Shown here piece by piece: positions 36,893-50,231 of a stretch of 50,231 nt of DNA; positions within the stretch are counted from its first letter, which is position 1; each line of letters starts with the position of its first letter. Source of the DNA: Desulfoscipio geothermicus (GTDB lineage: Bacteria > Bacillota > Desulfotomaculia > Desulfotomaculales > Desulfallaceae); assembly GCA_016841905.1 (NCBI GenBank), contig JAENYF010000024.1, positions 1 through 50,231 of the forward strand, read 5' to 3'. The notes under the pieces were generated by a model. That model was not told the origin of the DNA, ran no database searches, and saw nothing but the letters and a program-made list of their open reading frames with translations. The translations under genes and the position numbers were made by a program.

Positions 36893-36937
36893 TGGCAGGG
36901 GAGACAGGACTTGAACCCGCAGCCCACGGTTTTGGAG
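36893..36937 (-). repeat. attL: tRNA-Trp 3' fragment
   Basis: 45 bp identical to 50177-50221. The match runs from the encoded CCA end to the first base of the anticodon loop; the next base differs (T 36938, A 50222). This half is a fragment, not a complete tRNA. Confidence 0.95.
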
Positions 36938-37043
36938 TCCGATTTAGTGCATTAGGTATAGTTAGCGTAATTCGGTTAAGGCTTGTCCCCGTTGGCATTC
37001 CGACTTTCAGTATTGGTTGTTGTTGGTTGCCATGATATCCTTT

Positions 37044-37225
37044 TGGTGTGAATTTTAAAATCACTCACACCAGATTCACACCAATATTAGCACCAAGAAA
37101 AATGGGTTTTGGAACATGAATAAATCACCACCAAACCAATGCCCACACGGCTTGCTTTAGTGTGGTAAAGCATATTCACACCACCGGGTTCACACCATTA
37201 TTTTATGCTGTGGTTTTGGTGTGAA
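37044..37225. repeat. Left arm-type sites (TTCACACCA cluster)
   Basis: Exact 9-mers at 37075-37083, 37175-37183 and 37189-37197 (direct) and at 37044-37052 and 37217-37225 (inverted), plus one near-copy at 37064-37072 set 11 bp from its neighbour. The inverted ones sit in the longer repeat TTTTGGTGTGAATTTTAAA. The same 9-mer occurs twice at the right end. They are probably integrase or excisionase binding sites. The rest of 36938-37488 has no gene. Confidence 0.75.
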
Positions 37226-37488
37226 TTTTAAACATTGTTACGCTGCATGCTTTCCGCAAGTAAAATGATTACGCTAATACGACATTATCAATTAAACGGC
37301 GTTCATATTTCCATTTTAAGCATAGGGTAAAATCTTTCTAAGGTTTTTTATACCTGTTTAAGACTAGGCTACGCTTAAACGGCAATTTTGGGCGTCTAAA
37401 TAGCAATGCAGGTAGTTTGCTTGTTAATAGGGGGCAATTAACCGGGTAAAAAAAAGAACGGCGCAGTGGCCGTTGTTTTTTCATTAAC

Positions 37489-38739
37489 TTATTGATTAAC
37501 ATGCTGATTAGTTTGCTGATTAGCGTTAGTGGTGAATAATGCGTCTAGCTTATCAGCGGCCTCCACGTCGGCTTTCTTTATGAAGTGGCTATAAATATCC
37601 ATTGTCGTAGAAATGGTTGAGTGCCCTAGCCGTTCGCTGATAACCTTGGCGTGCAGCCCCTGCCCCACCAATATGGTGGCGCTTGTATGCCGCAATCCAT
37701 GAAACGGCAGCGGTGGTAAATTGTGTCTTTTGAGAAACTTAGGGAACCAGCTACCAAACGTATAGGGGTACATTGGCTTACCTTCCCATGTGGTGAATAA
37801 TCGCTGCGAACCCTGCCATAAATCCCCGGCCTTAAGCCGTTCCCGTGATTGTGCCGCTTTATGCTGCTTAAGCAGGGCCATAACCGACGCCGGCACCGAT
37901 ACTATCCGCTTAGAAGTTTCATTTTTGGGTTCCTTAGGGAAGGTTCCACGGCCAGTTACATATTGACTACTGCGCGCAATCTCAATCGTATTTTCCTCAA
38001 AATCGACGTCTTGCCATTCAAAACCCATTAATTCACCCTCACGAACACCGGTAGCAAGGGCCAATGTAATAGCCGTTCTATGCTTAAGTGGTTCATTCTC
38101 CAAAGCTTTAAGCATTGCCATTGCCTGTCCTTCACTGTAACAGGCGGCCTCCTTTTTCGGCACCCTGGGCGGCTTTACCCGGCTTGCAGGATTCGAGGGT
38201 ATTACCTGCCATTGAACAGCGTCTTGCAATATCGTACCAATCACCCGGTGGTGGTGGCGAATATTCCTTGGCGATAATCCACCGCTTTTACCGTCTAGTC
38301 GCACCCCGTCCTCTTGCAGGTTGGCGTAAAATTCCATTAAGTGGGTAGGTTTGATTTTCTCAACCTTTAGGTGGCCTATTGCCTGTAAAATCCGGGTTAA
38401 CTTCTCCTTGTAACCTGCTACTGTTTTAGGCGCAAGATTAACTTCCGCATAATCCCTTAACCAGCGTTCTGTAAACTCCGCAAAGGTTAGCTTTGAAGGT
38501 TCAACATACAGCCCTTTATCAACTTCCTCGCTGAACAATGCAAGTTTCGTTTCAGCCTCACCACGGGCTTTGCAACGGGAAATCTTTTTGCAATCCTTGC
38601 AGGTTTTTTCTTCACAACCATATTCAGTGCTGATAGTTTTGATTTTTCTTATCTGTTTTCCTTCCGAATCAAGGCCACAGGCTACGGTTAACCGCCAAGA
38701 GTTAACGCCTCTTTTTTGAATCGTACCTTTTCCCGCCAT
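37489..38739 (-). CDS. int: Tyrosine recombinase/integrase
   Basis: 416 aa. It catalyses site-specific recombination between attP and the tRNA-Trp gene. The N-terminus (1-65) is a small arm-binding domain with a Cys-rich insert CEEKTCKDCKKISRC, possibly zinc-binding. The SAM-like core-binding domain lies near 85-170 (FTERWLRDYAEVNLAPKT). The catalytic domain has Arg in ATGVREGEL near 231, HGLRHT near 348, and HSTISTTMDIYSHF with the Tyr near 383. This is a Tn916/phage-type integrase. ATG 38739 is used, with AGGAAGGTAATGAA upstream; the longer frame to 38835 overlaps the gene before. It is adjacent to attL and co-transcribed with the gene at 38744. Confidence 0.95.
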   Translation of the reverse strand: MAGKGTIQKRGVNSWRLTVACGLDSEGKQIRKIKTISTEYGCEEKTCKDCKKISRCKARGEAETKLALFSEEVDKGLYVEPSKLTFAEFTERWLRDYAEVNLAPKTVAGYKEKLTRILQAIGHLKVEKIKPTHLMEFYANLQEDGVRLDGKSGGLSPRNIRHHHRVIGTILQDAVQWQVIPSNPASRVKPPRVPKKEAACYSEGQAMAMLKALENEPLKHRTAITLALATGVREGELMGFEWQDVDFEENTIEIARSSQYVTGRGTFPKEPKNETSKRIVSVPASVMALLKQHKAAQSRERLKAGDLWQGSQRLFTTWEGKPMYPYTFGSWFPKFLKRHNLPPLPFHGLRHTSATILVGQGLHAKVISERLGHSTISTTMDIYSHFIKKADVEAADKLDALFTTNANQQTNQHVNQ

Positions 38740-38743
38740 TTCA

Positions 38744-39592
38744 TTACCTTCCTTTCTTGGTTTCCTTTTTCTTTTTCCTAAGTTCAGCCCCGCTATTTTT
38801 CCACCATAAGTTTTTACGGTGGCTTGGTTCAGCATATTTACTGCCCGGCGCTGCAGGTTTCCCGCAACCGCAAGCGCAAAGTGCCACGCTGCCCCACGCC
38901 TTATTAAGCAAATAATCCGCTATAGCACCGAACAAATTCGGTAATAATATATCGGGTTCATATCCGGGTTGCCAATCAACTATTGTCTCGAATTTAGCCT
39001 TTTCAAAATAAAGTGAATCCCATTTTATTTGGCCGGTTTCTTTAATAATCTCTGCGTGTAAGCAATAATCTTTTACCCATGCCGGCGTATCATATAGCAA
39101 CGACGGGATAAGGGTATTACCTTCCGGCACCAACAATACTTCCCTTGGTGGTTTTGCGAGTTGTTTGTATTTTTCCTTCAAATATTCAAAACCTTCCAAT
39201 AACAGCTTGACTCTACTCTCCAATTCATTATTCCGTTCCCGTTTCATACCAACGTTTAGGTTACTCTGTATAGCCAGCAACGTATTGGCAGCAGCGTACA
39301 CCACTTCAAGCGGAACAGCCTGCATATCTCCATGATAAACCTTACAATATTTTGGTATATAAGCACTTACCAAGTTACCAAACTTTGAATAAAACTCCAC
39401 AGCGGCGGCCTCATTGTTTAATTTCACTATATGGCGAAGGGATTCTTCAATCTTCCTTTCAGTAAACAGCCTTTTCCTGCCCGGTTTCCATTGCAACCAC
39501 CTTGTTTTGTTCCCCTCTTTAACACCCTGTGGTGTTGGAATGGGTGCAGAACATACCTTTACGTCAACTGCCCCGTGAACATGCCATCCCAA
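38744..39592 (-). CDS. Hypothetical element protein with Cys-rich C-terminus
   Basis: About 282 aa from TTG 39592 (AAGGGGGT at 8-nt spacing). The ATG at 39619 would place the start inside an operator repeat. The body is helical and hydrophilic. Near the end is CACGCGKPAAPGSKY with a following HRKNLWW and a Lys-rich tail (KKKKETKKGR), suggestive of a small zinc-binding and nucleic-acid-binding tail. No family is recognised. It ends 4 bp before the integrase start, so the two are expressed together, and may affect integration or maintenance. Confidence 0.7.
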   Translation of the reverse strand: MGWHVHGAVDVKVCSAPIPTPQGVKEGNKTRWLQWKPGRKRLFTERKIEESLRHIVKLNNEAAAVEFYSKFGNLVSAYIPKYCKVYHGDMQAVPLEVVYAAANTLLAIQSNLNVGMKRERNNELESRVKLLLEGFEYLKEKYKQLAKPPREVLLVPEGNTLIPSLLYDTPAWVKDYCLHAEIIKETGQIKWDSLYFEKAKFETIVDWQPGYEPDILLPNLFGAIADYLLNKAWGSVALCACGCGKPAAPGSKYAEPSHRKNLWWKNSGAELRKKKKETKKGR

Positions 39593-39609
39593 AACTTTAC
39601 ACCCCCTTA

Positions 39610-39662
39610 TGCTAGACATTGCTAGACAATCACTTCACCAATTAAGTACATTGTAATATACT
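39610..39662 (+). promoter_or_regulatory. Operator/promoter copy 1
   Basis: Operator 39610-39627: two direct TGCTAGAC half-sites at 10-bp period. Promoter-like -35 TTCACC (39634-39639), 17-nt spacer, -10 TATACT (39657-39662), reading right. It lies just upstream of the leftward gene start at 39592, so it could also block that promoter. Confidence 0.65.
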
Positions 39663-39743
39663 TTAATTAAGAAGGCAATAGCAAATTCAATAAACGCAAA
39701 GCTCAGCAATACCTTACGTTAATCAAAATACAGCCACTGAATA

Positions 39744-39796
39744 TGCTAGACATTGCTAGACGCAAACTTCACAATTTTAATACTTTGTAATATGCT
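39744..39796 (+). promoter_or_regulatory. Operator/promoter copy 2, ahead of the regulator gene
   Basis: The 18-bp operator of copy 1 recurs exactly at 39744-39761, followed by -35 TTCACA (39768-39773), a 17-nt spacer and -10 TATGCT (39791-39796). Similarity extends through the promoter, so this is a duplication of about 55 bp. It likely lets the 64-aa repressor control both directions. Confidence 0.7.
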
Positions 39797-39819
39797 TATA
39801 TCAATAGGAGGGAATACAT

Positions 39820-40014
39820 ATGGAAAATCAGCTGAAAGCAGAAAGAAAGCGGCAGGGTTTAACCCAGCTAGAGTTGGCCAAACAGACAGATATCCACCCG
39901 ATAGAGATTAGCAAAATTGAACGTGGGGCAGTACGGGCATATCCAGGTTGGCGTAAGCGTATTTCAGCGGCACTTGGAGTATCGGAAGAAATATTGTTTC
40001 CGGGAGTTGATTAA
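39820..40014 (+). CDS. Cro/C1-type HTH regulator
   Basis: 64 aa, a single XRE helix-turn-helix (RQGLTQLELAKQTDIHPIE then ISKIERG). AGGAGGG upstream of ATG 39820. It is probably the master switch of the element and autoregulates through the operator at 39744-39761. It is short for a full CI repressor; it may act more like Cro or SinR-type proteins. Confidence 0.9.
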   Translation: MENQLKAERKRQGLTQLELAKQTDIHPIEISKIERGAVRAYPGWRKRISAALGVSEEILFPGVD

Positions 40015-40015
40015 T

Positions 40016-40336
40016 ATGGAGAACAACTTACAACCACAACAGGCAATACAAGAAGCACTCCGGGCAATATTAATGGCAGGCAACTTACAGGCAACACAGG
40101 AACCACCTAAAGCCACGATGCCAGCTAAAGAGGCCGCAACTTATTTAAATATCAGTTATTGGAAACTATTGGAATTGGCAAAAGCAAAGAAAGTACCACA
40201 CATTAGGGCAGGCAGCCGGGTATTGTTCCGGCGGGAAAGTTTAAATGATTGGTTGGCTGAACAGGAGGTAGCCAGCGTTGCCCAGGCGGTACAACCAGAA
40301 CCAATAGTTGTTAAGGGAATACGGCGTTTAAAGTGA
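40016..40336 (+). CDS. Excisionase-like HTH protein
   Basis: 106 aa. Near residues 37-85 lies a MerR/excisionase-type HTH_17 domain: MPAKEAATYLNISYWKLLEL, then VPHIRAGSRVLFRRESLNDW. The short linkers on either side lack motifs. ATG 40016 follows the regulator stop by one base, with CGGGAG upstream. This type of protein directs excision together with integrase, or acts as an AlpA-like activator in satellites; sequence cannot separate the two. Confidence 0.85.
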   Translation: MENNLQPQQAIQEALRAILMAGNLQATQEPPKATMPAKEAATYLNISYWKLLELAKAKKVPHIRAGSRVLFRRESLNDWLAEQEVASVAQAVQPEPIVVKGIRRLK

Positions 40337-40404
40337 AGTTAACGAGGTTGTGACTGAAAGGGGGTGAGGTAGCAAGGGGATATATGGGCCAGTGGAAAGC
40401 AAAA

Positions 40405-40425
40405 ACCCCGGCGGCAATCCGGGGT
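40405..40425 (+). promoter_or_regulatory. GC-rich hairpin
   Basis: ACCCCGG (40405-40411) pairs with CCGGGGT (40419-40425). No T-run. It lies between the excisionase and the 47-aa gene, so it may modulate read-through. Confidence 0.45.
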
Positions 40426-40448
40426 AGTTAAGAAGGGAGTTGATGATT

Positions 40449-40592
40449 ATGACATTGTTAGCCAAACTGCGTGAAATGTTGGCTAATGCGCACAGAACCG
40501 GCGAACTTACCGAATTTCTGCAGGTACTGTGCTACACATTAATGGGCTACATGCTGTTGATTATGACTATTGATTTAATTGTGAACCGATAA
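40449..40592 (+). CDS. Small membrane protein (47 aa)
   Basis: A short frame from ATG 40449 to TAA 40592, with GGGAG at 40435-40439. The first half is polar and helical (KLREMLANAHRTGELTEF). The second is a hydrophobic helix (YTLMGYMLLIMTIDLIV). It is a typical small phage-type membrane protein. Function unknown. A strong GCCGGGCA/TGCCCGGC hairpin (40600-40629) follows it. Confidence 0.6.
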   Translation: MTLLAKLREMLANAHRTGELTEFLQVLCYTLMGYMLLIMTIDLIVNR

Positions 40593-40599
40593 GCACCAT

Positions 40600-40629
40600 G
40601 CCGGGCAGCGGCGGCAACCATTGCCCGGC
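40600..40629 (+). promoter_or_regulatory. Strong hairpin after the 47-aa gene
   Basis: GCCGGGCA (40600-40607) and TGCCCGGC (40622-40629), 14-nt loop, followed by ACTAAAAA; there is no T-run on the + strand. It may slow or partly stop transcription before the primase gene. Confidence 0.5.
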
Positions 40630-40714
40630 ACTAAAAACGCACTAGAAAGAATCTACATTATTTATTATACACCATTGAGAGTTTCACTGACAACTTTTAT
40701 AAGGAGGAACCCTA

Positions 40715-43252
40715 TTGAAAACAACACAGGTATTTAATACCGCAGACACATATAATGCAAGGCTTGCCACAGCAGAGAATTTTCTGCTTGAACTTTTCGG
40801 AGAAGATACCCCCGGTTATCTAATGATAATTTCTATTGATAAATCAAAAACAAGAAACAACGTAAAAGCATATCCCTTTGCCACCGCTAACGGCGGGGTA
40901 GCAGAGGCCGCAAAAATAGCCTTGCTATTGGCTAATAACCCGAACTTAAACATATACTTTGGCCTTGGCTTACAAAAAGATAATCCAGGCGATTATCGGC
41001 GCGGTAGTAAAGAAACCGTAATTGCTATACCGGGTGTGTGGTTTGAGGCAGACGCCAAAACGGGTGAACATTCTAAAGGGGCGTTACCAGCTACAAAGGC
41101 CGAGGCGCTATCTTTTATAAAGAATACCTTTCCATTAGAACCCACATACATAGTAAATAGTGGCGGTGGCCTACATTGTTATTGGCTATTCAAAGAACCG
41201 CTTATTATTGAGAACCGGGAAGAATGGAAAAACGCTGATAGCTTATCGAGGCGTTTTCAATCAAAACTACTTAAAGCAGGTAGTGCTAAGGGTTGGAACC
41301 TTGACTTCACCGGTGACTTGGCCAGAGTGTTACGGGTACCGGGAACGTTCAACGTTAAGAGGGAACCGGTTGAGGTAACTATCTTAGAGAACCACCCAGA
41401 TGCACGTTATACCACCGCTGATATTGAACAGTACTTACCGGATGAAGTTGTGCAGGAATATGTTGCTGATAATAGCGACAATACCAAAACAAGCGAATAT
41501 CCACCCTCTGACGCTGAACAGATTGCTAGTAAGTGTATGTGGTTTGCGCATTGCCGGGATGATGCGGAAACCTTATCAGAACCGGAATGGAAAGCCTTTA
41601 TTGATATTGCTGCATTATGCACTAATGGCCGAGAGTTAATACATGCATGGAGTAAAAGCTATCCTACATACACCAAAAGTGAAACCGATAAAAAAGTCGA
41701 CTACGCGATTAAATCAAATAAACCTCGAACATGCCGGTATATTAAAAACCACTTCGGCAGCAGCCATTGCGGATTTTGTGGTGAACATAAAAAATCACCA
41801 ATAACGTTAGGTATGCCTAGTAAAAAAGAACGCTATGAAGGCATGAACCTACCAGAATACTTTTACTTTGACGAAAAAGCTGATTGTTTGCGCGTAAGCC
41901 GCCCTTTATTAGCTAAGCACATTCGTGATAATTTAGATTATTTTTTCGTGAAAGATAGTGCCCACGGCGGCCTGCTTAAATATATCTACCAGGGGGGTTA
42001 TTATCAGCTTTATTCTGACGATATGTTGAAAGGTGCAATCAAAGCATATATCACTGACTTTGACGAAACCGCTTTACGAATGGCTGATGTTAATGAGGTA
42101 TTCCAGCAACTTACCACCGACTTAGTATTCAAAAGCAACGACGAACTTAACGCCAATGAGAACGTTATTAATTTTAAAAATGGAGTGTTAAGGCTATCAG
42201 ATATGACACTCTTACCACATAGCCCAGAGTTATTATCCACCATTCAAATACCATGCGAGTGGACAGGCCAGCCAAGCCCTACGCCGGTATTCGATGCCTA
42301 TATTTCCGAGTTAGTTAATTGGGATAAGGAAATCGAAAATCTGCTACTAGAATTTATTGGGGTATGTATATCCAACATTAAGGGACATCGAATGAAGAAA
42401 GCACTCTTTTTGGTTGGTAAAGGCGATACGGGTAAAAGCAGATTAAAAGAACTAACCGAAAAGCTATTAGGCCGAGGCAACTTCTTCCCTATAGATTTAA
42501 GAGAACTTGAAGAACGATTTGCGACAGGCAATATCTACAATAAAAGGCTAATTGGTAGTTCGGATATGTCCTTTATGACTATTAAGGAAATTAAAATATT
42601 TAAAAAATTAACCGGCGGCGATGAGGTTCCCGCTGAATTTAAAGGTATGCAGGGTTTTAACTTTACTTATAATGGATTGCTGTGGTTCTGCATGAATAAA
42701 TTGCCCAGATTTGGCGGCGACGACGGTGAGTGGGTACATGAAAGAATTATGCAAGTTAACTGCATAAACAAGATACCAAAAAGCCGACAGGATAAATTTC
42801 TAGTCGATAAGTTATATAGCGAACGCAACGGCATTGTTTATAAGGCCATTATGGCGTTAAGGCAGGTTATTTCTAATGGCTACAATTTTTTCGAACCGGA
42901 CAGCGTTATTATAGCCCGGCAGGAGTATATGGAAGAAAATAATACGGCTGTATCGTTTTGGAAAGAGTGCATGATTAAAAGGCCAACCAGCGGAATACCT
43001 GCCAATGACGGTAGTACTACCAGCCGTGTGTATGACGTGTATAAAGCATGGTGCAAGGATAACAACCACGGGTACTCTAAAACTACCAAAGAGTTCAGAG
43101 AAGATATTGCCCAACACTTAGGGTTTGGTTGGAACAAAATCACAACAAGGCACAAAAAGGGTATATTCTACCGCGACTACACATTAAGCAACGAGGTAAA
43201 GGTTCAATACCACGACGCTTACGGTGTGAATTACATGTATACAGCAGGGTAA
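40715..43252 (+). CDS. Primase-helicase (RepB-like primase / D5-type SF3 helicase)
   Basis: 845 aa. The N-terminal primase part has a catalytic-type acidic pair in VWFEADAKTGEH near 109 and NSGGGLHCYWLF near 148, with LARVLRVPGTFN near 209. A Cys cluster near 340-356 (CRYIKNHFGSSHCGFCGEH) may be a zinc site. The D5-N region precedes an SF3 helicase: Walker A LVGKGDTGKS near 565, LIGSSDMSF near 612 and MNKLPRF near 661. It should start and drive replication of the element. TTG 40715 with TAAGGAGG upstream. The iteron region directly follows, which supports replication from here. Confidence 0.9.
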   Translation: MKTTQVFNTADTYNARLATAENFLLELFGEDTPGYLMIISIDKSKTRNNVKAYPFATANGGVAEAAKIALLLANNPNLNIYFGLGLQKDNPGDYRRGSKETVIAIPGVWFEADAKTGEHSKGALPATKAEALSFIKNTFPLEPTYIVNSGGGLHCYWLFKEPLIIENREEWKNADSLSRRFQSKLLKAGSAKGWNLDFTGDLARVLRVPGTFNVKREPVEVTILENHPDARYTTADIEQYLPDEVVQEYVADNSDNTKTSEYPPSDAEQIASKCMWFAHCRDDAETLSEPEWKAFIDIAALCTNGRELIHAWSKSYPTYTKSETDKKVDYAIKSNKPRTCRYIKNHFGSSHCGFCGEHKKSPITLGMPSKKERYEGMNLPEYFYFDEKADCLRVSRPLLAKHIRDNLDYFFVKDSAHGGLLKYIYQGGYYQLYSDDMLKGAIKAYITDFDETALRMADVNEVFQQLTTDLVFKSNDELNANENVINFKNGVLRLSDMTLLPHSPELLSTIQIPCEWTGQPSPTPVFDAYISELVNWDKEIENLLLEFIGVCISNIKGHRMKKALFLVGKGDTGKSRLKELTEKLLGRGNFFPIDLRELEERFATGNIYNKRLIGSSDMSFMTIKEIKIFKKLTGGDEVPAEFKGMQGFNFTYNGLLWFCMNKLPRFGGDDGEWVHERIMQVNCINKIPKSRQDKFLVDKLYSERNGIVYKAIMALRQVISNGYNFFEPDSVIIARQEYMEENNTAVSFWKECMIKRPTSGIPANDGSTTSRVYDVYKAWCKDNNHGYSKTTKEFREDIAQHLGFGWNKITTRHKKGIFYRDYTLSNEVKVQYHDAYGVNYMYTAG

Positions 43253-43274
43253 ATGTAAAATTTTAGGGAAATCG

Positions 43275-43578
43275 GGTGTAGGTTGGTGTAGGTTGGTGTA
43301 GGTACTGGTGTAGGTACCTACATCAGCAAAACCCTTGTGGGAGTAAGGATGAAGGGGTGTTGTTGTAGTTAGTGTATGTTTTAAAATATCATGGCGAAAT
43401 TTAGAATGAATTTTCAATTTGACGCGAACGCGACAAATCAGAATTTGTATTACAGTTCTGTAGGAACTTGAAAATACCTACACCACCTACACCAAAACCC
43501 GTGAACCCTTGGGAGAGTATGGCTGTGGTGGTGTAGTTACTGAAAAATACCTACACCTTTAACTACACCACCTACACC
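43275..43578. repeat. Iteron cluster, candidate replication origin
   Basis: Four GGTGTAGGT copies (43275-43283, 43285-43293, 43295-43303, 43307-43315; first three at 10-bp period). Then four inverted ACCTACACC copies (43476-43484, 43485-43493, 43549-43557, 43570-43578) and two near-copies (43530-43538, 43561-43569). The middle also holds two related segments around ACCCTTGTGGGAGTA and ACCCTTGGGAGAGTA. It lies in a 365-bp gap between primase-helicase and SF2 helicase. The inverted halves are about 160 bp apart around AT-rich DNA. The likely role is initiator binding. Confidence 0.75.
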
Positions 43579-43617
43579 CAAATTGGGGAATTATGGATAA
43601 TTAGGAGGGTTGGCACT

Positions 43618-45309
43618 ATGATAACCTTACGCGAATATCAAACAGAGGCAATCGCTGCTAACCTTAAAAGGCGAACCGAAGGCATAACCCGACAATTAGT
43701 ATCTCTACCAACCGGCACAGGTAAAACGGTTATTTTTGCGGCATTAGCAAAGCAACTGGACACTCGCACATTGATTATAGCGCACCGGGAAGAACTGATT
43801 AATCAAGCGGTGGATAAATGCCATATGGTATGGCCGGAGGCGGAGATTGGCGTTGTTATGGCTGAAAACGACGAACCGGATAAACAATTGGTTGTCGGCA
43901 GTGTCCAAAGCTGTTGCAGAGACAACCGCCTGGACAGGCTACGCGAACAGGATTTTAAGCTGTTAATTATCGACGAGGCACACCATGCGCCTGCTGATAC
44001 ATATCGCAAGATTATTGAAGAACTCGGCTTTATGGCCGGCAACCCGGATAAGTTGTTGCTTGGCTTTACAGCAACCGCAGCACGTAGCGATAAGGTTGGA
44101 TTGGATAATGTGTTTCAAGAAATTGTATTTGAACGTTCTATTGCTACCATGATTAAGGCCGGATATTTGGCAGATTTACGCGGGATTAAGGTAAAAACTA
44201 AAACAGATTTAACGGGTGTAACGGTACGGCATGGCGACTTTGCCGAGGGTGAATTAGCGAATGTGGTAAATACACCGGCACGTAACCGGGTAGTGGTAAA
44301 GGCTTATCTTAAATACGCCGCGGATAAAAAGGCCGTGGCCTTTACTGCTAACGTACAGCATGCCATGGATTTAGCGAACGAGTTTACCGCCGCAGGAATA
44401 AGGGCCAGTGCAGTATGCGGTGCTATGTCTAAAGAAGAACGGCGGGATAAACTACAGGCCTTTACCACCGGTGAATTGCCGGTGTTAACCAACTGTAACC
44501 TTCTAACGGAAGGATTCGACGAACCTGCTATTGCGGCCATACTTATGACTAAGCCAACCAAATCCAATGTGGTTTATACGCAAGCTGTAGGGCGGGGAAC
44601 CCGCCTTTACCCTGGTAAAAGTGAATGTATGGTTTTGGATTTCTGCGATACCGGCGCAGGTATCTGCACATTAGGCGCATTGGCCGGGCTATCGCTGGAA
44701 GATATGCCAAGCGGCCAAAGTATTCGTGAGGCGGTGGCTGCTGCTGAAACTAGGGCGGCTGAACAAGCGCAAGCTAATGCTGCGATACATACCACTGCCA
44801 CCACATTTGATTTACTGGAACAATCCAGGTTTGTTTGGGTGCCAATACAAGGCGGGCACTTCAGATTAACGGCAGATAAAGGGCTATACATTTACCTAAA
44901 GAATACCGGCAGCGGCAAGTATTCGATTGGCTTAACTACGGACACAGAGTTGATTGAAATGCTATCCGATATGGAATTACCGCTCGGTTATGCGCAAGGT
45001 TTGTCTGAAGATTGGGCAAAAAGGAACGCTAACACCGTATTTGCCGATAAGAACGCAGGCTGGCGCGGTTATCTGCCTACTGAAAGCCAACTAGCTATGT
45101 TAGCCAGTTATGGCATTAAGCCAAAGCCCAACATAACCCGTGGTGAGGCAAGCGACTTGATAAGCGCACACAAAGCCAAACAGGCGGCAAAGCGTAATGA
45201 ACCGGCAACTGCAAAGCAAATATACGCCTTAAGAAAACGCGGGCATATAGTTGACGCAAGCCTTACCAAGGGCGAGGCGGCAAGGTTATTCAAACAGGCA
45301 GCTTATTAA
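43618..45309 (+). CDS. SF2 DEAD/DEAH-box helicase
   Basis: 563 aa. Q-like LREYQTEAI at 4; Walker A LPTGTGKTVIF near 50; Ia IIAHREELINQ; DEAH box IDEAHH near 120; SAT-like GFTATAARSD near 153; motifs IV-VI VAFTANVQHAMDLA, CNLLTEGFDEP, and QAVGRGTRLYPGK near 323. The C-terminal 200 residues are not a standard domain and end in a repeated TPEQ/AKQ-type basic region (AKQIYALRKRGH). Similar phage and plasmid helicases act in replication or repair. ATG 43618 with TTAGGAGGG upstream. Confidence 0.92.
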   Translation: MITLREYQTEAIAANLKRRTEGITRQLVSLPTGTGKTVIFAALAKQLDTRTLIIAHREELINQAVDKCHMVWPEAEIGVVMAENDEPDKQLVVGSVQSCCRDNRLDRLREQDFKLLIIDEAHHAPADTYRKIIEELGFMAGNPDKLLLGFTATAARSDKVGLDNVFQEIVFERSIATMIKAGYLADLRGIKVKTKTDLTGVTVRHGDFAEGELANVVNTPARNRVVVKAYLKYAADKKAVAFTANVQHAMDLANEFTAAGIRASAVCGAMSKEERRDKLQAFTTGELPVLTNCNLLTEGFDEPAIAAILMTKPTKSNVVYTQAVGRGTRLYPGKSECMVLDFCDTGAGICTLGALAGLSLEDMPSGQSIREAVAAAETRAAEQAQANAAIHTTATTFDLLEQSRFVWVPIQGGHFRLTADKGLYIYLKNTGSGKYSIGLTTDTELIEMLSDMELPLGYAQGLSEDWAKRNANTVFADKNAGWRGYLPTESQLAMLASYGIKPKPNITRGEASDLISAHKAKQAAKRNEPATAKQIYALRKRGHIVDASLTKGEAARLFKQAAY

Positions 45310-45391
45310 TTGGTATATCGTTATATTGTGATATATGATATAGGTAATAGTTAAATTTACGCTAGGTTGTTTATGAAGGAGGTGTTGAAAC

Positions 45392-45823
45392 ATGGGCCAT
45401 AGCATGATTGAGTTTACCGTTTATGGTGAGGCCGTCCCACAAGGCAGGCCACGGGCTGCAAAGGTAGGTAACCGGGTGCGGGTATATGATCCTAGTAAAT
45501 CCAGCAACTATAAGAATTACGTTCGTTTGGCGGCGGCTGAAAATGCACCCGACAAGCCTTTAGAAGGCCCGCTTATTCTATCTGTTAAGGTTTATAGGAG
45601 CATACCCAAAAGTTTCGGTAAAAAGAAAACCTTTGCTGCTATTGCAGGAGAACTACGGCCCGCTACTAAGCCGGACATCGACAACTACCTGAAGGCCATT
45701 GAGGATGCGCTCAATGATTTAATATGGCGGGATGATGGCCAAATAGTAGGCGTTAGTGCTGAGAAGTTTTATGCTGAACGTCCCCGGGTGGAAATAACGG
45801 TAACGAGAGTGAGTGACATCTAG
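45392..45823 (+). CDS. rusA: RusA-type Holliday junction resolvase
   Basis: 143 aa. RusA cuts four-way junctions, a common step in phage replication. N-terminal IEFTVYGEAVPQGRPRA, then catalytic Asp set in KPDIDNYLKAIEDALND (near 92) and WRDDGQIVG. ATG 45392 has GAAGGAGGTG; ATG 45404 is a second option. It is followed by the ArpU-like gene. Confidence 0.92.
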   Translation: MGHSMIEFTVYGEAVPQGRPRAAKVGNRVRVYDPSKSSNYKNYVRLAAAENAPDKPLEGPLILSVKVYRSIPKSFGKKKTFAAIAGELRPATKPDIDNYLKAIEDALNDLIWRDDGQIVGVSAEKFYAERPRVEITVTRVSDI

Positions 45824-45846
45824 CCTGAGTAAAGGGAGGGATGCCT

Positions 45847-46251
45847 TTGCAGATGCATATCCGAAAGTTTGTCCTGGCTGAACTGGAGAGGTACAGAGAT
45901 TATAAAAGCCAAATTGAGGAATACGAACTGGAACGGGCTGAAATATTAGAAAGCTATCCTGTGGCTACATGGCAAAAAGAGCGGGTTAGCGGTGGGAACA
46001 TTGGCGATTCAACGGCAAATGCGGCTGCAAGACTGGAACGCTTAGACGCTGGATATGCAAGGGCAAGGTTTTATGTAAAAGCCATTGAGCGTGTTTTAAA
46101 CAGCCTACCAGACGAGAACCGGGAGCTTATAGAAACGGTGTGTATTGGCGGCATACCGGCTGAGCACGCAGGGTTGCTTATGGATAGGGCCACTATATAC
46201 CGGCGCTTGAACGAGATACTTCCATTGTTTGCGCTGAGAATGGGATTGTAG
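45847..46251 (+). CDS. ArpU/RinA-like phage regulator
   Basis: About 134 aa, helical. N-terminus FVLAELERYRDYKSQIEEYE; ends with a sigma-like or HTH-like region: LIETVCIGGIPAEHAGLLM, then DRATIYRRLNEILP. This pattern is that of ArpU/RinA-type late-gene regulators of Gram-positive phages. TTG 45847 is preferred (GGGAGGG at 6 nt); ATG 45841 is too near it. In this position, after RusA and before unknown small genes, it may switch on the genes that follow. Confidence 0.65.
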   Translation: MQMHIRKFVLAELERYRDYKSQIEEYELERAEILESYPVATWQKERVSGGNIGDSTANAAARLERLDAGYARARFYVKAIERVLNSLPDENRELIETVCIGGIPAEHAGLLMDRATIYRRLNEILPLFALRMGL

Positions 46252-46275
46252 ATAACCATGAAAGGAGAGTTCTAT

Positions 46276-46590
46276 ATGCCGTACAAAGATCCGGAAAAAC
46301 AGAAGGCATATCGTCGTGAGTGGATGCGCATGAACCGGGCCGGGGAAAGTGGCACTCCCCGTGCAACCTTAAATCCTGCCCCGGTGAGGATTAAAACTGC
46401 TACCGACATCCTAGATTTGCTGGAGGTTACCATTAACGAAGTCCGTGATGCTGACAGCGACGTTTTAACAAAGGCCCGTTGTGTTGGCTATCTGGCTGGG
46501 ATTGCACTAAAGGCGGTGGAAACTGCTGACTTGGAGAAACGCCTTATTGCTGTGGAAAAACTATTAAAAGGGAGGCACAAAACCGCATGA
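46276..46590 (+). CDS. Hypothetical phage-type protein
   Basis: 104 aa. The N-terminus MPYKDPEKQKAYRREWMRM is a basic helix common in phage DNA-binding and small terminase-like proteins. The middle has a Thr/Pro linker, then two helices (ILDLLEVTINEVRDADSDV, LEKRLIAVEKLLKGRH). Whether it is a terminase small subunit cannot be said. ATG 46276 with AAGGAGAG at 6 nt; it overlaps the next gene by 4 bp. Confidence 0.7.
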   Translation: MPYKDPEKQKAYRREWMRMNRAGESGTPRATLNPAPVRIKTATDILDLLEVTINEVRDADSDVLTKARCVGYLAGIALKAVETADLEKRLIAVEKLLKGRHKTA

Positions 46591-47243
46591 GAAAAGCAAA
46601 TTTGACTGACCTGTACACTACCTTAACCCCTGACGAACGTTTTAAGCTACTACTAACCGCACTGGCCCGTGGCGACGAGGACGACGCGTGGGATATTGCA
46701 CACTCCTGCCCAAAGAAAAACTATAGCATGTCGGACGCTGCATACTCCGATAGATTAGATACATGCAGGGATATAGCACTGTTTTGCAGCCTGGAATGGT
46801 TGTTAAAGGAACGGGCCTATTCTGCTTCAAAGGCGATACTGACAATGAACAGATTCGCACATGATAGTTATTTAACCGGTTATTTAGCAGGGTGTGGTAA
46901 TGATGCAGATATGGACGCGGCAGTCGATAAGGCATACGAACATACCGTAGACGTTAGGCAGGAATATGTTGCTATGCATAATGATAGTCAACGGCAATTA
47001 AAGTCGCTACTGTCTGCCCTGGAGATATTTTGCCGTGATATTGATGTTCCTATTGAGCATATGTTTTACTGGTTCCCTCCCACTATTGGGTGGATTAATG
47101 ATACGAGGACAGCATTGCAGGACGTTCAGCCTGACGCTGAAGCTATGGATTACTATTTATCCACACTTCGGGGATATTGGACGGAGGCCACAGGTGAAGC
47201 AATAGATACCAATAAAAGGATTGGTGCAGGAAATGGCATATAA
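46587..47243 (+). CDS. Hypothetical protein
   Basis: 218 aa, no recognised family. Helical and acidic, with LTPDERFKLLLTALARGDED near 13 and several aromatic residues near the end (MFYWFPPTIGWIND). ATG 46587 overlaps the previous stop, and its own stop overlaps the next start (TAATG). It is therefore one of three translationally coupled genes. Confidence 0.7.
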   Translation: MRKANLTDLYTTLTPDERFKLLLTALARGDEDDAWDIAHSCPKKNYSMSDAAYSDRLDTCRDIALFCSLEWLLKERAYSASKAILTMNRFAHDSYLTGYLAGCGNDADMDAAVDKAYEHTVDVRQEYVAMHNDSQRQLKSLLSALEIFCRDIDVPIEHMFYWFPPTIGWINDTRTALQDVQPDAEAMDYYLSTLRGYWTEATGEAIDTNKRIGAGNGI

Positions 47244-47413
47244 TGACTACGCAACAGGTACCAGGGGGCAAGGCGTTCCTAGACGCCAAGCTGTATCAAC
47301 ACAATACCTTGGCAACTGACGGTCCAGTTGCTGGGAAGTCGCTACAGGAAACCTGGCAGGACAGATTAAAGCAACCCCCGTGGTGGCAACAGATATTAGA
47401 CGTTCATATTTAA
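47243..47413 (+). CDS. Small hypothetical protein (56 aa)
   Basis: ATG 47243 shares its A with the TAA of the gene before, and the frame runs to TAA 47413. Hydrophilic; the end is aromatic (KQPPWWQQILDVHI). It has no known family. The coupling makes it likely to be real. Confidence 0.55.
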   Translation: MTTQQVPGGKAFLDAKLYQHNTLATDGPVAGKSLQETWQDRLKQPPWWQQILDVHI

Positions 47414-47515
47414 AAGCGGCATTCGGTGGCTAACAATAATCGCGTATATTGGTAATTTCCCCTTACCTTTCCCACAACAACCATATATACTATTTAATAG
47501 AAGGGGGGTGAAATC

Positions 47516-47989
47516 ATGCGCAGGAAAGCGTTTATTATCGCGTTGGCTATGGTGTTTATGTTGGTCTTTTGTTCTCCCGGTTTTGCATACTTTATTGACG
47601 TAAACGATTCTCGCTATGATAGAAAAGTACCTCAAATGGATATGATACAAACAGCTACCGCATTAGCCAATTCAATTAGCCAATATCAGGCGGCTAATCC
47701 GGTAAAGACTACTTTACCAGTCGGCACAAAAAGCCTTAAATCACGCATTTATGATTTAAACACATTAATACTCATGCACAGCAACGGCGCCATATCCAAC
47801 GTGGACTTTAGAAACCAAATTACAGGAATTAAATTCTCTGCCAATAGCACATTAACTGCAAACGGCAATTACTTCCAAACCATTGCGAACCTGCTACAAG
47901 GCGGCTATATAACCGACGCGCAGGCATTAAACGAATTACAAAAACTTGAATTAATAATGCTGATTGAACAATTAAATTATAATCGTTAG
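47516..47989 (+). CDS. Secreted protein of unknown function
   Basis: 157 aa. Signal peptide: MRRKAF, hydrophobic core IIALAMVFMLVF, then CSPGFAY. The mature part is small, helical and rich in Asn/Gln, with TALANSISQYQAANPV and LTANGNYFQTIANLLQGGY. One Cys (C20) lies at the signal region but no typical lipobox. RBS AAGGGGGGTG. A strong terminator follows. As a secreted protein in an otherwise replicative element it looks like cargo for the host surface. Confidence 0.75.
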   Translation: MRRKAFIIALAMVFMLVFCSPGFAYFIDVNDSRYDRKVPQMDMIQTATALANSISQYQAANPVKTTLPVGTKSLKSRIYDLNTLILMHSNGAISNVDFRNQITGIKFSANSTLTANGNYFQTIANLLQGGYITDAQALNELQKLELIMLIEQLNYNR

Positions 47990-48003
47990 ATACAATTATA
48001 ATA

Positions 48004-48029
48004 ACCCCCCTTCACCGGGGGCTTTTTTT
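48004..48029 (+). terminator. Terminator of the secreted-protein operon
   Basis: CCCCC (48006-48010) and GGGGG (48017-48021) with loop TTCACC, followed by C and seven T. Confidence 0.92.
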
Positions 48030-48120
48030 ATTGCAGTGGAAATACTTCCTTAATGCCACCAGGGCAGAATAACTCAATATTTTGCAGGTACAAACACCCT
48101 AACTTAATTTTAGCCTATGC

Positions 48121-48142
48121 TTAAAACGCAAATATGGAGGCC
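48121..48142 (+). repeat. Dispersed repeat, copy A
   Basis: 22 bp identical to 49763-49784 (begins TTAAAACGCAAATATGG and ends AGGCC). Related copies occur at 48313-48332 and, more weakly, near 37373-37392. Confidence 0.85.
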
Positions 48143-48312
48143 ATTATTTTGCGTATTACCAACAAAATGTCGGGACGGCACCGTAATGCGCCATTCGTGG
48201 ATAGCTGAACAACTTCCACACTAGGCAACCTTCATTGTGTGGTAGTCTGCGGCAATATAGCGCGCAAATTAGGCAACCAACCAACCAACAGACATAAACC
48301 CCTACGCTATTC

Positions 48313-48332
48313 TTAAACGGCAAATATGGCGG
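48313..48332 (+). repeat. Dispersed repeat, copy B
   Basis: TTAAACGGCAAATATGGCGG, a variant of the 22-bp unit. It is preceded, as in copy C, by a GCAACCAA-rich segment and ATAAA. Confidence 0.7.
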
Positions 48333-48616
48333 TTGGTGGCAGCTTACTTATCAGCCTTTGTCAAATTTGACAAAACAGATTTAGGTTTACGGATTTGATT
48401 CTCCTTAGCCTCTTTTGCCAATGCACCCTTTAGTCTGCCGGTAAGTTTACCGGTTCATGTCAACGGCTTTGGCGGCTATATCAATAGATTTATCTTGTGG
48501 TTGGAAAGGTACAAAATTTTGCACGTTTCCACTTTGGTATTGATTTGCACCAGTTGGATTGCCCTTGCCGTCCCGCCATAGATTTCTCAATCCGTATAAC
48601 CAAAGCAGCCTTCTTT

Positions 48617-49180
48617 CTATAGGACACCTAAAGCTGCATATAAGATAAAAAACATTATTGCAACAATAGTTCTAAAGAAACCAATTTTTTTATGCGATAC
48701 TTTAGTACTCAATTTATTATCCCAATATGTTACACCTTTATCTTTTAAGTCATAATAAGAATAGATTTCAGTCAATATCATCACTAAAGGAAAACCAATA
48801 ATTAATCCACGAAACCATACCAAGAAACTTCTATTAAGGGCATCTGAAAATGTAAGCATTTTACCTTCTTGAGTAGTTAACTGGACACTTAATAACCATT
48901 TGCCTGGGGTTGTTCCCCACGTTGAAATCAAAATTGCCTCAACAAAAACATAAATAAAGAGTAACAGAATCATGCCAAATGGGTTGAGTAAAACATCATA
49001 TAATGTAGGGGATAATAAAGATAATACGAGGGCAGTTAATATTATATAAAGAAATATATCCATATAGCGTGCCCAAAATCTAACCCATGGGCGAATCTGT
49101 GGTACTAGTTCTTCATTGTAAACTTGAGTATCATACAAAGGTTTACCGTTGAAATTTACCGTTTTATCCTCAAATTTCAA
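48617..49180 (-). CDS. RDD-family membrane protein
   Basis: 187 aa with about four TM helices. The RDD signature is RFWARYMDIFLYIILTAL near 34 and then TPGKWLLSVQLTTQEG near 91. The DNA is much richer in AT than the surrounding genes, which suggests separate origin. RDD proteins are integral membrane proteins of mostly unknown role, some acting in ion transport. Start ATG 49180, with AGGTTATTC upstream. It is the only leftward gene in this part of the element, so it is probably a morphon-like or cargo gene. Confidence 0.85.
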   Translation of the reverse strand: MKFEDKTVNFNGKPLYDTQVYNEELVPQIRPWVRFWARYMDIFLYIILTALVLSLLSPTLYDVLLNPFGMILLLFIYVFVEAILISTWGTTPGKWLLSVQLTTQEGKMLTFSDALNRSFLVWFRGLIIGFPLVMILTEIYSYYDLKDKGVTYWDNKLSTKVSHKKIGFFRTIVAIMFFILYAALGVL

Positions 49181-49799
49181 TTAGAATAACCTCCCAAATC
49201 GATATTACTTTGCTGCCTTCCATTTTCTCCCCTTTCTTTGGTATAGTTACTTTATTATATATTATTACTTTGGAATAATTTGTCATAATGAGTCGGATTA
49301 AACAATTACTTTTGGCGGGTACCCCAATTATAATTACAAAGGTTAATTCTTTATTTCAAAAAAAAAGAACACGCCATTACAGCGAGTTTATTCTTTCACT
49401 ATAATGTCGGGGGAAGTGCGCCTTTCCGGGCCGGTATTTCATTTAACCAACCTAGCACCAGGGGAGAGAAGTAAAACAGTGCCATAAATCCACTTCGTTA
49501 ACCGGTTAGCAATACAGCAAGTCCGCACCCGAATATATCCGACTTCTTCATTTTTGACTGGTTAATTGACTGCTTTATTGAAATACCGATATTGATACAA
49601 GCAATAAACCACTTAACATACCGGCAATACACCACCAGAGGGGGATTGTCTACTTTCAACCGTTGCATATTCTGCAACACCTGCGCAGGCGCACAGAAAT
49701 AGGGCAAATCAAGCAACCAATCAACTAGTAGGTATAAATCTTGGCTAAATTTTAGACGTGCCTTAAAACGCAAATATGGAGGCCGGTTTTATGTAGAAA
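49181..49799. other. Non-coding stretch at the right end
   Basis: AT-rich promoter area for the RDD gene (49200-49290). A weak hairpin AACACGC/GCGAGTT with AAAGAA/TTCTTT flanks lies near 49360-49405. Repeat copy C is near 49763. The minus-strand frame at 49498-49773 runs through the repeat and is not convincing. Confidence 0.45.
49763..49784 (+). repeat. Dispersed repeat, copy C
   Basis: Exact copy of 48121-48142. It is preceded at 49704 by AAATCAAGCAACCAATCAAC, which resembles the area before copy B. It ends with GGAGGCC, which could also serve as a ribosome site for what follows. Confidence 0.85.
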
Positions 49800-50084
49800 T
49801 TGCTTTTATCCATTATTACCCTGGTTACGCACCCAATTACGCACACAGCGACGCAGGTATGCGGTTTAGCTTATCTATTTCTTTTGACAGTGGGGTTTAC
49901 TAAATGGAATAATAAAACATATAGGGCTAAGGAAACATTTCCACAAGGGAATGCAGCGAGGTTCACTAAGTGGTATAATAAAACCCTCCGGAAATATTTC
50001 CGCAAGGTTAAAAAGAATGTCCCACCCGTGCCTAAGTTATTGGTTTTATTGGTTGTAGTTTGGTGGATTAGGTTGCTGTTTTAA
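49800..50084 (+). CDS. Possible small membrane protein
   Basis: 94 codons from TTG 49800. N-terminal hydrophobic part (LLSIITLVTHP, VCGLAYLFLLTVGF), then an internal tandem (FTKWNNKTYRAKE and FTKWYNKTLRKYF), and a C-terminal hydrophobic run (LLVLLVVVWWIRLLF). The nearest GGAGG is 17 nt upstream, so the start is poor. The internal repeat and two hydrophobic ends make it possible but unproven. Confidence 0.4.
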   Translation: MLLSIITLVTHPITHTATQVCGLAYLFLLTVGFTKWNNKTYRAKETFPQGNAARFTKWYNKTLRKYFRKVKKNVPPVPKLLVLLVVVWWIRLLF

Positions 50085-50089
50085 AATGA

Positions 50090-50109
50090 TTCACACCAAA
50101 TTCACACCA
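50090..50109 (+). repeat. Right arm-type sites (TTCACACCA pair)
   Basis: TTCACACCA at 50090-50098 and 50101-50109, 11 bp apart, preceded by TTTTAAAAT as at the left end. They lie 68 bp inside attR. Confidence 0.75.
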
Positions 50110-50136
50110 TTACGCTGAACATTACGTTACAAATAG

Positions 50137-50171
50137 AAAAGCTAATACTCGCAACCCTTGCGAATACTAGC
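50137..50171 (-). terminator. Element-supplied terminator for tRNA-Trp
   Basis: On the minus strand a 14-bp stem (50171-50158 with 50154-50141, two wobble pairs) and GGG loop, then TTTT. It lies 5 bp beyond the tRNA 3' end and replaces the host terminator at 36858-36890. Confidence 0.85.
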
Positions 50172-50176
50172 TTTTT

Positions 50177-50231
50177 TGGCAGGGGAGACAGGACTTGAAC
50201 CCGCAGCCCACGGTTTTGGAGACCGTTGCTC
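50177..50231 (-). tRNA. tRNA-Trp (anticodon CCA), 5' part outside window; contains attR
   Basis: The minus strand reads, 5' to 3', part of the anticodon stem (ACGGT), loop CTCCAAA with anticodon CCA, ACCGT, variable loop, T-arm GGTTCAAGTCC, acceptor TCCCCTG and encoded CCA at 50179-50177. The 5' half continues past 50231. The 45 bp 50177-50221 is the attR copy; this side is the working tRNA. Confidence 0.92.

Follow-up and report, generated by a model that had tools for sequence, protein, structure and literature searches.

What kind of mobile DNA combines phage-type replication and control genes with no recognizable gene for a virion or for transfer? This question is raised by an element that fills the last 13.3 kb (positions 36893-50225) of contig JAENYF010000024.1 of Desulfoscipio geothermicus (assembly GCA_016841905.1); this whole contig of 50,231 bp (G000:C29 in our numbering) was analyzed and is referred to here as the window. 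We consider it probable that the element is an integrated, intact satellite resembling the phage-inducible chromosomal islands (PICIs), whose dependence on a helper phage we infer. It follows a known plan, its hijacking genes are of unrecognized type, and its host group is a new one for such satellites as far as our search of the literature reaches. Judged by its sequence, it is a member of a family of small tRNA-integrated elements without a recognized full virion set or recognized conjugation genes.

All main genes of the element have open frames, and family matches confirmed each of the integrase, AlpA/excisionase (Xis)-like, primase-helicase, superfamily 2 (SF2) helicase and RusA genes that the initial annotation had named. 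A tyrosine integrase gene (37489-38835, reverse strand; PF00589, 7.1e-24; phrog_1, 1.7e-76) and orf291 (38744-39619, reverse strand) are read leftward; the true start of the integrase is probably an internal MAGKG at about 38739, because the homologue in a relative from genome G004 begins there. Rightward, on the forward strand, follow the genes for a small Cro/CI-type helix-turn-helix (HTH) regulator of 64 aa (39820-40014; PF01381, 4.9e-10), the AlpA/excisionase-like protein (40016-40336; HTH_17, 2.2e-9; phrog_66 excisionase/regulator, 5.1e-8), an 845-aa primase-helicase (40715-43252; DUF5906, D5_N and Pox_D5; phrog_864, 7.9e-76), an SF2 (ResIII/DEAD) helicase (43618-45309; PF04851, 1.2e-30; 70% to G004) and a RusA Holliday-junction resolvase (45392-45823; PF05866, 7.6e-38). 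The start of the Xis-like gene lies nearer to 40016 than to the start of its open reading frame (ORF; 39917-40336), and its match to Tn916-Xis (3.1e-4) falls short of that family's cut-off. Next in line is a phage-type transcriptional regulator (45841-46251, forward strand; phrog_36 'transcriptional regulator', 3e-12; phrog_248 'transcriptional activator', 7.1e-5). It had been called ArpU-like; the phage regulator families bear out its kind, while the name ArpU, which the PHROG result does not contain, is one that we presume to apply. It precedes g9 (46276-46590, forward strand; 104 aa), whose ORF opens at 46258 with 46276, the start given in the initial annotation, as the best start, and g10 (46587-47243, forward strand), which overlaps g9. 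Pfam and PHROG scans bore out the description of a replicative integrated element without recognized virion or transfer genes: no virion, terminase, relaxase or FtsK family was recognized, among the matches listed, in the scanned proteins of the element (a 50-aa ORF at 40440 was not scanned).

Two close relatives show the same gene order at other tRNA genes. The 16.4-kb element G004:C9 is inserted in tRNA-Thr, is bounded by a 57-bp attachment (att) repeat (96.5%), and by tblastn matches the window in integrase (65%; 70% in a pairwise alignment), Xis (61%), helicase (70%), g9 (54%) and g10 (70%). Its primase is a distant match at 28%, and it additionally holds a Spo11-like toprim gene and, by eye, a transposase resembling those of insertion sequences (IS). 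The 15.9-kb element G340:C57 lies in the tRNA gene for selenocysteine (tRNA-SeC) between 73-bp repeats (100%) and matches in integrase (51%), HTH regulator (51%), Xis (53%), g9 (60%) and g10 (35%); it carries two methyltransferases as cargo, along with a gene that weakly matches MzaB. The gene order that the initial annotation had proposed to look for in tRNA-Trp of related genomes is thus found in syntenic elements, but in tRNA-Thr and tRNA-SeC, while tRNA-Trp is free of this element in all six other genomes of the genus.

The gene that ties these elements to further ones is g9. Homologues were found in 6 of 398 genomes of the phylum and 7 of 113 of the class, the window's own genome being counted in both sets, which amounts to 12 genomes and 13 places when the repeated copy on a Thermaerobacter circle and two fragments from G028 are each counted once. 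Six of the nine g9 places examined (window, G004, G340, G029:C11, G250 and G367) are enclosed by att repeats, the elements measuring 6.2 to 16.4 kb; no such repeat was detected at G029:C18, G028 and G064, where g9 is near a contig end. Homologues of g10 occur in 3 of the 113 class genomes, the host included, and beside g9 in G340. Among 50,697 phage records, neither g9 (two queries, E 0.01) nor g10 found a match. Two scans of IMG/VR returned 18 and 29 loci for g9, nearly all sharing a short N-terminal motif alone, and none for g10; the sole long match to g9 (L098, 28%) was set aside, as it lies opposite a longer ORF. The initial annotation had supposed a piracy function among the genes at 46276-47413. 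Such a function did not emerge: in Pfam and PHROGs neither g9 nor g10 matches a family of terminase small subunits (TerS) or of capsid-size factors, comparison of their profiles with the PDB yielded no convincing solved structure, and single-sequence structure predictions were of low confidence (mean predicted local distance difference test scores of 62 and 46). Since elements with different integrases, primases and insertion sites have g9 in common, this being the gene by which they were found, it is the strongest candidate for a conserved late step in the life of the element.

The gene content of the relatives was assessed on 127 ORFs in 11 element stretches, of which 73 remained after removal of those scanned, matched or cut by a contig end; 50 of these 73 were scanned. 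Known g9 members, overlapping spurious frames, the IS-like transposase, reverse-transcriptase pieces, some frames already scanned and one near a contig end were left out, and the resulting tables hold the best 25 of 56 PHROG families and the complete Pfam list of 22 families.

The site of insertion is tRNA-Trp, as the initial annotation had proposed. A 49-bp direct repeat with one difference (98%) joins the left attachment core (36893-36941), a fragment of the tRNA-Trp 3' end, to the right core (50177-50225), and positions 50177-50231 correspond to the 3' 55 bp of an intact tRNA-Trp gene. Insertion leaves the 3' end of the tRNA intact, and the left site has one deviating base in the core and diverges from the tRNA sequence beyond it. 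ARAGORN detects no tRNA gene inside the window; the complete tRNA-Trp(CCA) forms the final 76 bases of contig C26, whose last 55 bases are identical to window positions 50177-50231, and which stops exactly at the att boundary. No further contig with the core sequence was found in the assembly. An end at this boundary with a 55-bp overlap may reflect a branch in the k-mer graph between integrated and empty sites, and C26 would end here if both states of the site coexisted in the population. An empty site is present in G004:C5, where GTAATCCC, which in the window lies immediately left of position 36893, directly follows tRNA-Trp. The flank of this empty site aligns in two blocks, one of 108 bp (91.7%, to window 36941-36834) and one of 1,458 bp that includes panB (91.8%, to window 36569-35116); the 264 bp between them matched nothing. 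The distance from tRNA-Trp to panB is at most about 0.6 kb in G001, G004, G005 and G006 (0.3 kb in G006) and larger in G003 (4.2 kb) and G002 (about 8.5 kb).

The primase-helicase and the DNA that follows it resemble the replication module of PICIs. The sole PDB match of the window primase (7.6e-14), and also of the G004 primase, is the DNA primase 7ola/7om0, which we take to be the SaPI5 primase-helicase. SaPI5 PriRep1 is mentioned, without a PDB entry code, in the excerpt of PMC10516667. Directly 3' of the primase gene, in the spacer that precedes the SF2 helicase gene, lies a region (43275-43582) that is probably the replication origin, as judged from its repeats. Four forward copies of GGTGTAGG (43275-43314) are separated by an AT-rich stretch (69% AT at 43380-43460) from a mostly inverted set (43477-43578) consisting of five inverted GGTGTAGG/GGTGTAGT copies and one forward GGTGTAGT at 43530. 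The iterons noted in the initial annotation are real: on either strand, the 320 bp from 43270 to 43590 hold 10 GTGTAG hexamers, compared with at most three in 300 dinucleotide shuffles, and when any hexamer is allowed the densest still reaches 10, compared with at most six in 60 shuffles. The same spacer of the G004 relative contains 12 GTGCCA hexamers, the first six forward and the last six inverted (shuffles at most six; n = 40, any hexamer). Window and G004 elements alike have two iteron sets around AT-rich DNA directly 3' of the primase gene, each with its own motif and its own primase. The excerpt of PMC6092414 describes the PICI origin in the same way, as AT-rich DNA with a set of iterons on either side, located 3' of the replication gene.

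Single phage packaging and tail parts occur in other carriers of g9. The record NZ_CP037897.1 of Thermaerobacter sp. FW80 (L086) has 8,456 bp, its first 1,500 bases recur after 6,886 bp, and the real circle probably measures 6,886 bp. It encodes an integrase, a MerR-type and an HTH protein, a primase, and a TerS homologue (phrog_6299, 1.2e-14) directly before g9; a terminase large subunit (TerL) is absent among its 12 annotated features. No second copy of this TerS was found in its own genome beyond the circle, and two weak matches were obtained in phages, one of them annotated as a putative terminase small subunit. In the G367 element, which is 11.4 kb long, att-bounded and located in tRNA-Trp, a lone gene for a 581-aa tail tape-measure homologue (L089:11377-13122, equal to G367:C1:699376-701118; phrog_1272, 6.6e-43) follows a regulator gene (phrog_248, 3.6e-4); it has one distant second copy (26%).

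This same Thermaerobacter relative is annotated as a plasmid and typed as non-mobilizable, and an integrating plasmid is the main rival explanation for the window element. Such a plasmid would excise, replicate alone from its iteron origin and spread without any phage, through natural transformation or by hitching on conjugation, and its phage-like genes would be a currency shared among small replicons. The replication module is indeed self-sufficient in content, and neither a packaging gene in the element nor a helper prophage in the host was recognized. On the other side, the scans revealed no relaxase or FtsK-type transfer protein among the matches listed, the genes for RusA and the phrog_36 regulator are of phage type, and the very circle that is annotated as a plasmid carries the TerS homologue. 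We hold the plasmid explanation to be rather unlikely, while giving it more weight than any other rival.

A second possibility is a prophage derivative that retains the early region, its late genes having been deleted from the stretch between g10 and the right end. A prophage of the same genus with a matching early layout is at hand: in G004:C4 (L139/L140, about 85-100 kb) an integrase gene, a leftward gene, an AlpA-like gene and a primase gene are succeeded by genes that look by eye like HNH, TerS and TerL genes, the last of them also matching phrog_2 (which we take to be TerL), and by a PF04860 portal gene. This prophage, however, shares little with the window (integrase 32.5%, AlpA 33.8%, weak primase similarity only) and matches neither g9 nor g10, two genes that are likewise unmatched in the phage records. 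The initial annotation had reasoned that structural genes in the same interval of close relatives would make the element a deletion derivative; in G004:C9 and G340:C57, which sit at other tRNA genes, no virion genes were recognized by the Pfam and PHROG scans among the matches listed. With the main genes and both att sites of the window element intact as well, we disfavor such a deletion as improbable. That the element is a defunct island, intact in appearance and no longer mobile, is very unlikely: direct evidence of excision is lacking and the left att site deviates as described, but all main frames are open and C26 ends as would be expected of a population in which some sites are empty.

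Several observations weigh against a PICI-like satellite and have to be set beside those in its favor. No TerS or capsid-size gene was recognized in the window element, in which cos and pac sites were not searched for, and TerS and the tape-measure gene are found in other members of the group. The TerS call on the Thermaerobacter circle comes from PHROGs, Pfam having given none, and G367 matches g9 weakly and in the C-terminal part alone (E 3.1e-6). Five further elements were tested for iterons; the densest hexamer did not exceed the shuffle maximum in four of them and was one above it in the fifth. The primases of the Thermaerobacter circle and of the G004:C4 prophage are 51.5% identical over 433 aa, so that replication modules pass between such elements and phages. 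A repressor of the Stl type was not identified, and the HTH gene points rightward with the replication genes. Finally, the PF04860 portal is unmatched in the host assembly (93% complete), so no resident helper is seen.

The helper phage that the initial annotation called for was thus not found in the host. Across the genus, PF04860 portals are present in two of seven genomes, three of them in G005. The host gave a single weak phrog_2 hit, of a kind that recurs in all seven genomes of the genus in frames of 328-345 aa; we took these hits to be chromosomal ATPases and rejected them as TerL. As a control, G005 gave no better phrog_2 hit despite its three portals, so phrog_2 does not cover all TerL types and the absence of TerL from the host is weakly tested. 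Prophages are reported in sulfate reducers of the Desulfotomaculum group in the excerpt of PMC8146710, which makes helpers plausible.

If the element is a PICI-like satellite, its life would proceed as follows. A divergent control region (39608-39804) would keep it silent. This region contains a 63-bp direct repeat (79%), each copy with TGCTAGACAT-like tandem units that are candidate operators. On infection by, or induction of, a tailed phage the switch would open; integrase and Xis would excise the element as a circle; the primase-helicase would open the iteron origin and replicate the circle; and the SF2 helicase and RusA would process the product. The ArpU-type protein would then turn on g9 and g10, perhaps helper late genes too, and the DNA of the element would be packed into the particles of the helper, with g9 as the leading candidate for the conserved late step. 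The repressor reported by the initial annotation stands as far as the Cro/CI-type HTH protein (PF01381) is concerned, but this gene is read rightward and is no recognizable Stl-type repressor. The position of a PICI repressor gene is occupied by orf291, whose product has, by eye, a Cys-rich C-terminal stretch, has no match in Pfam, PHROGs or phages, and has weak relatives in four other genomes (113 class genomes searched).

We tentatively entertain a broader reading in which the g9-bearing elements constitute a satellite family of their own, present in several lineages of Bacillota, swapping integrase, tRNA site and replicase freely, picking up single packaging or tail parts, and keeping g9 as a shared hijacking factor. 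Here g9 would perhaps be a TerS partner or an adaptor to the packaging machine of the helper. In the open-licence PMC literature we met no satellite family described for this bacterial group, which is not proof of its absence from print; the excerpt of a prophage paper on sulfate reducers names satellite viruses in general terms only (PMC8146710). If the window element is of this kind, PICI-like satellites would extend beyond the well-studied cocci to anaerobic sulfate reducers and other Bacillota, and g9 would serve as a marker gene for finding more of them. The window and G004 elements constitute a natural pair in which primase and iteron type have changed together with much of the rest unchanged.

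The primase module has a distribution of its own. Relatives of its C-terminal half (44-67%) were found in twelve loci that, at E 1e-3, share nothing else with the window element except weak integrase similarity in three, so that the module moves on its own. In these loci, the scans covered 76 of the 127 ORFs with a length of 110 aa or more, most primases and chromosomal-looking or distant genes being left out, with the best 25 of 83 PHROG and the best 25 of 79 Pfam families tabulated; among the matches listed for these 76 proteins were a single portal and a single TerL hit, assigned to L012 by gene order. In four small elements from metagenome-assembled genomes of Clostridia, a lone HK97-type major capsid gene is located beside the primase relative (L010:6933-7832, L011:5274-6368, L013:8041-9030 and L018:10252-11226). 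Three of the four have a serine recombinase, and by eye no unassigned frame of portal or TerL size lies alongside; they are possibly another kind of satellite.

Other features of the locus concern the ends of the element and its cargo. Repeats with ATTCACACCA-like units lie near the left (37053-37086) and right (50079-50112) att sites, the two being 88% alike in a repeat comparison, and more such units occur at 37182-37202 and 37205-37232; all are possible integrase arm sites. Imperfect non-coding repeats around GCTTAAAACGCAAATATGGAGGCC were noted at both element ends (37364-37391, 48103-48151, 48302-48329 and 49745-49793). The terminator at the right end resembles those after tRNA-Trp in G003 and G006, but further elements there were rejected, given panB at 4.2 and 0.3 kb and no match to the element proteins queried. 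In G002:C6, the roughly 8.5 kb between panB and tRNA-Trp (L138:3700-12170) contain other genes, AgrB-like and sensor-like by eye, and an incomplete second copy (42 bp) of the tRNA end; this stretch, without a match to any element protein, is perhaps another island at the same site. Downstream of g10 are g11 (47243-47413, forward strand), a 56-aa ORF without a PHROG match, and two cargo genes: g12 (47516-47989, forward strand) for a probable secreted protein with, by eye, a signal-peptide-like start and no convincing family match, and a leftward gene for an RDD-family membrane protein (48617-49180, reverse strand; PF06271, 6.5e-11).

Compared with known systems, the element shares integrase, Xis, replication protein and tRNA site with actinomycete integrative and conjugative elements (AICEs) and other integrative plasmids of the pSAM2 type, and differs from them in lacking a recognized FtsK/TraB-type translocase. 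We ruled out an AICE, an integrative and conjugative element or an integrative and mobilizable element on the grounds that no FtsK-type translocase or relaxase family was among the matches listed for the scanned proteins. P4-like satellites likewise possess an integrase, an AlpA-type protein and a primase-helicase, but the gene order differs and no P4 late or capsid-size gene was recognized. Of the two models named in the initial annotation, P4 was therefore the wrong one and was ruled out by gene order, while the likeness to PICIs persists; both kinds of satellite are treated in the excerpt of PMC6092414. With the capsid-forming PICIs, which are named in the excerpt of PMC11389934, the element has in common integration and replication without a tail set, whereas a portal, protease, capsid or TerL gene of its own was not recognized. 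From Gram-positive PICIs, i.e., the Staphylococcus aureus pathogenicity islands and their kin, it differs in having orf291, without a recognized repressor domain, in the place of an Stl-type repressor, in showing no recognized TerS, capsid or interference gene, and in adding the SF2 helicase, RusA, the phrog_36 regulator and the g9-g10 pair. Their plan, with a leftward integrase gene, rightward xis and primase genes and then the origin (excerpt of PMC6092414), is nevertheless the one that fits better: in its 13 kb without recognized virion genes, the element has its own integrase at the left, a divergent control region, xis and primase-helicase genes read rightward, an origin 3' of the primase gene with two iteron sets around AT-rich DNA, accessory genes at the right end, and att repeats of its own with a known empty site.

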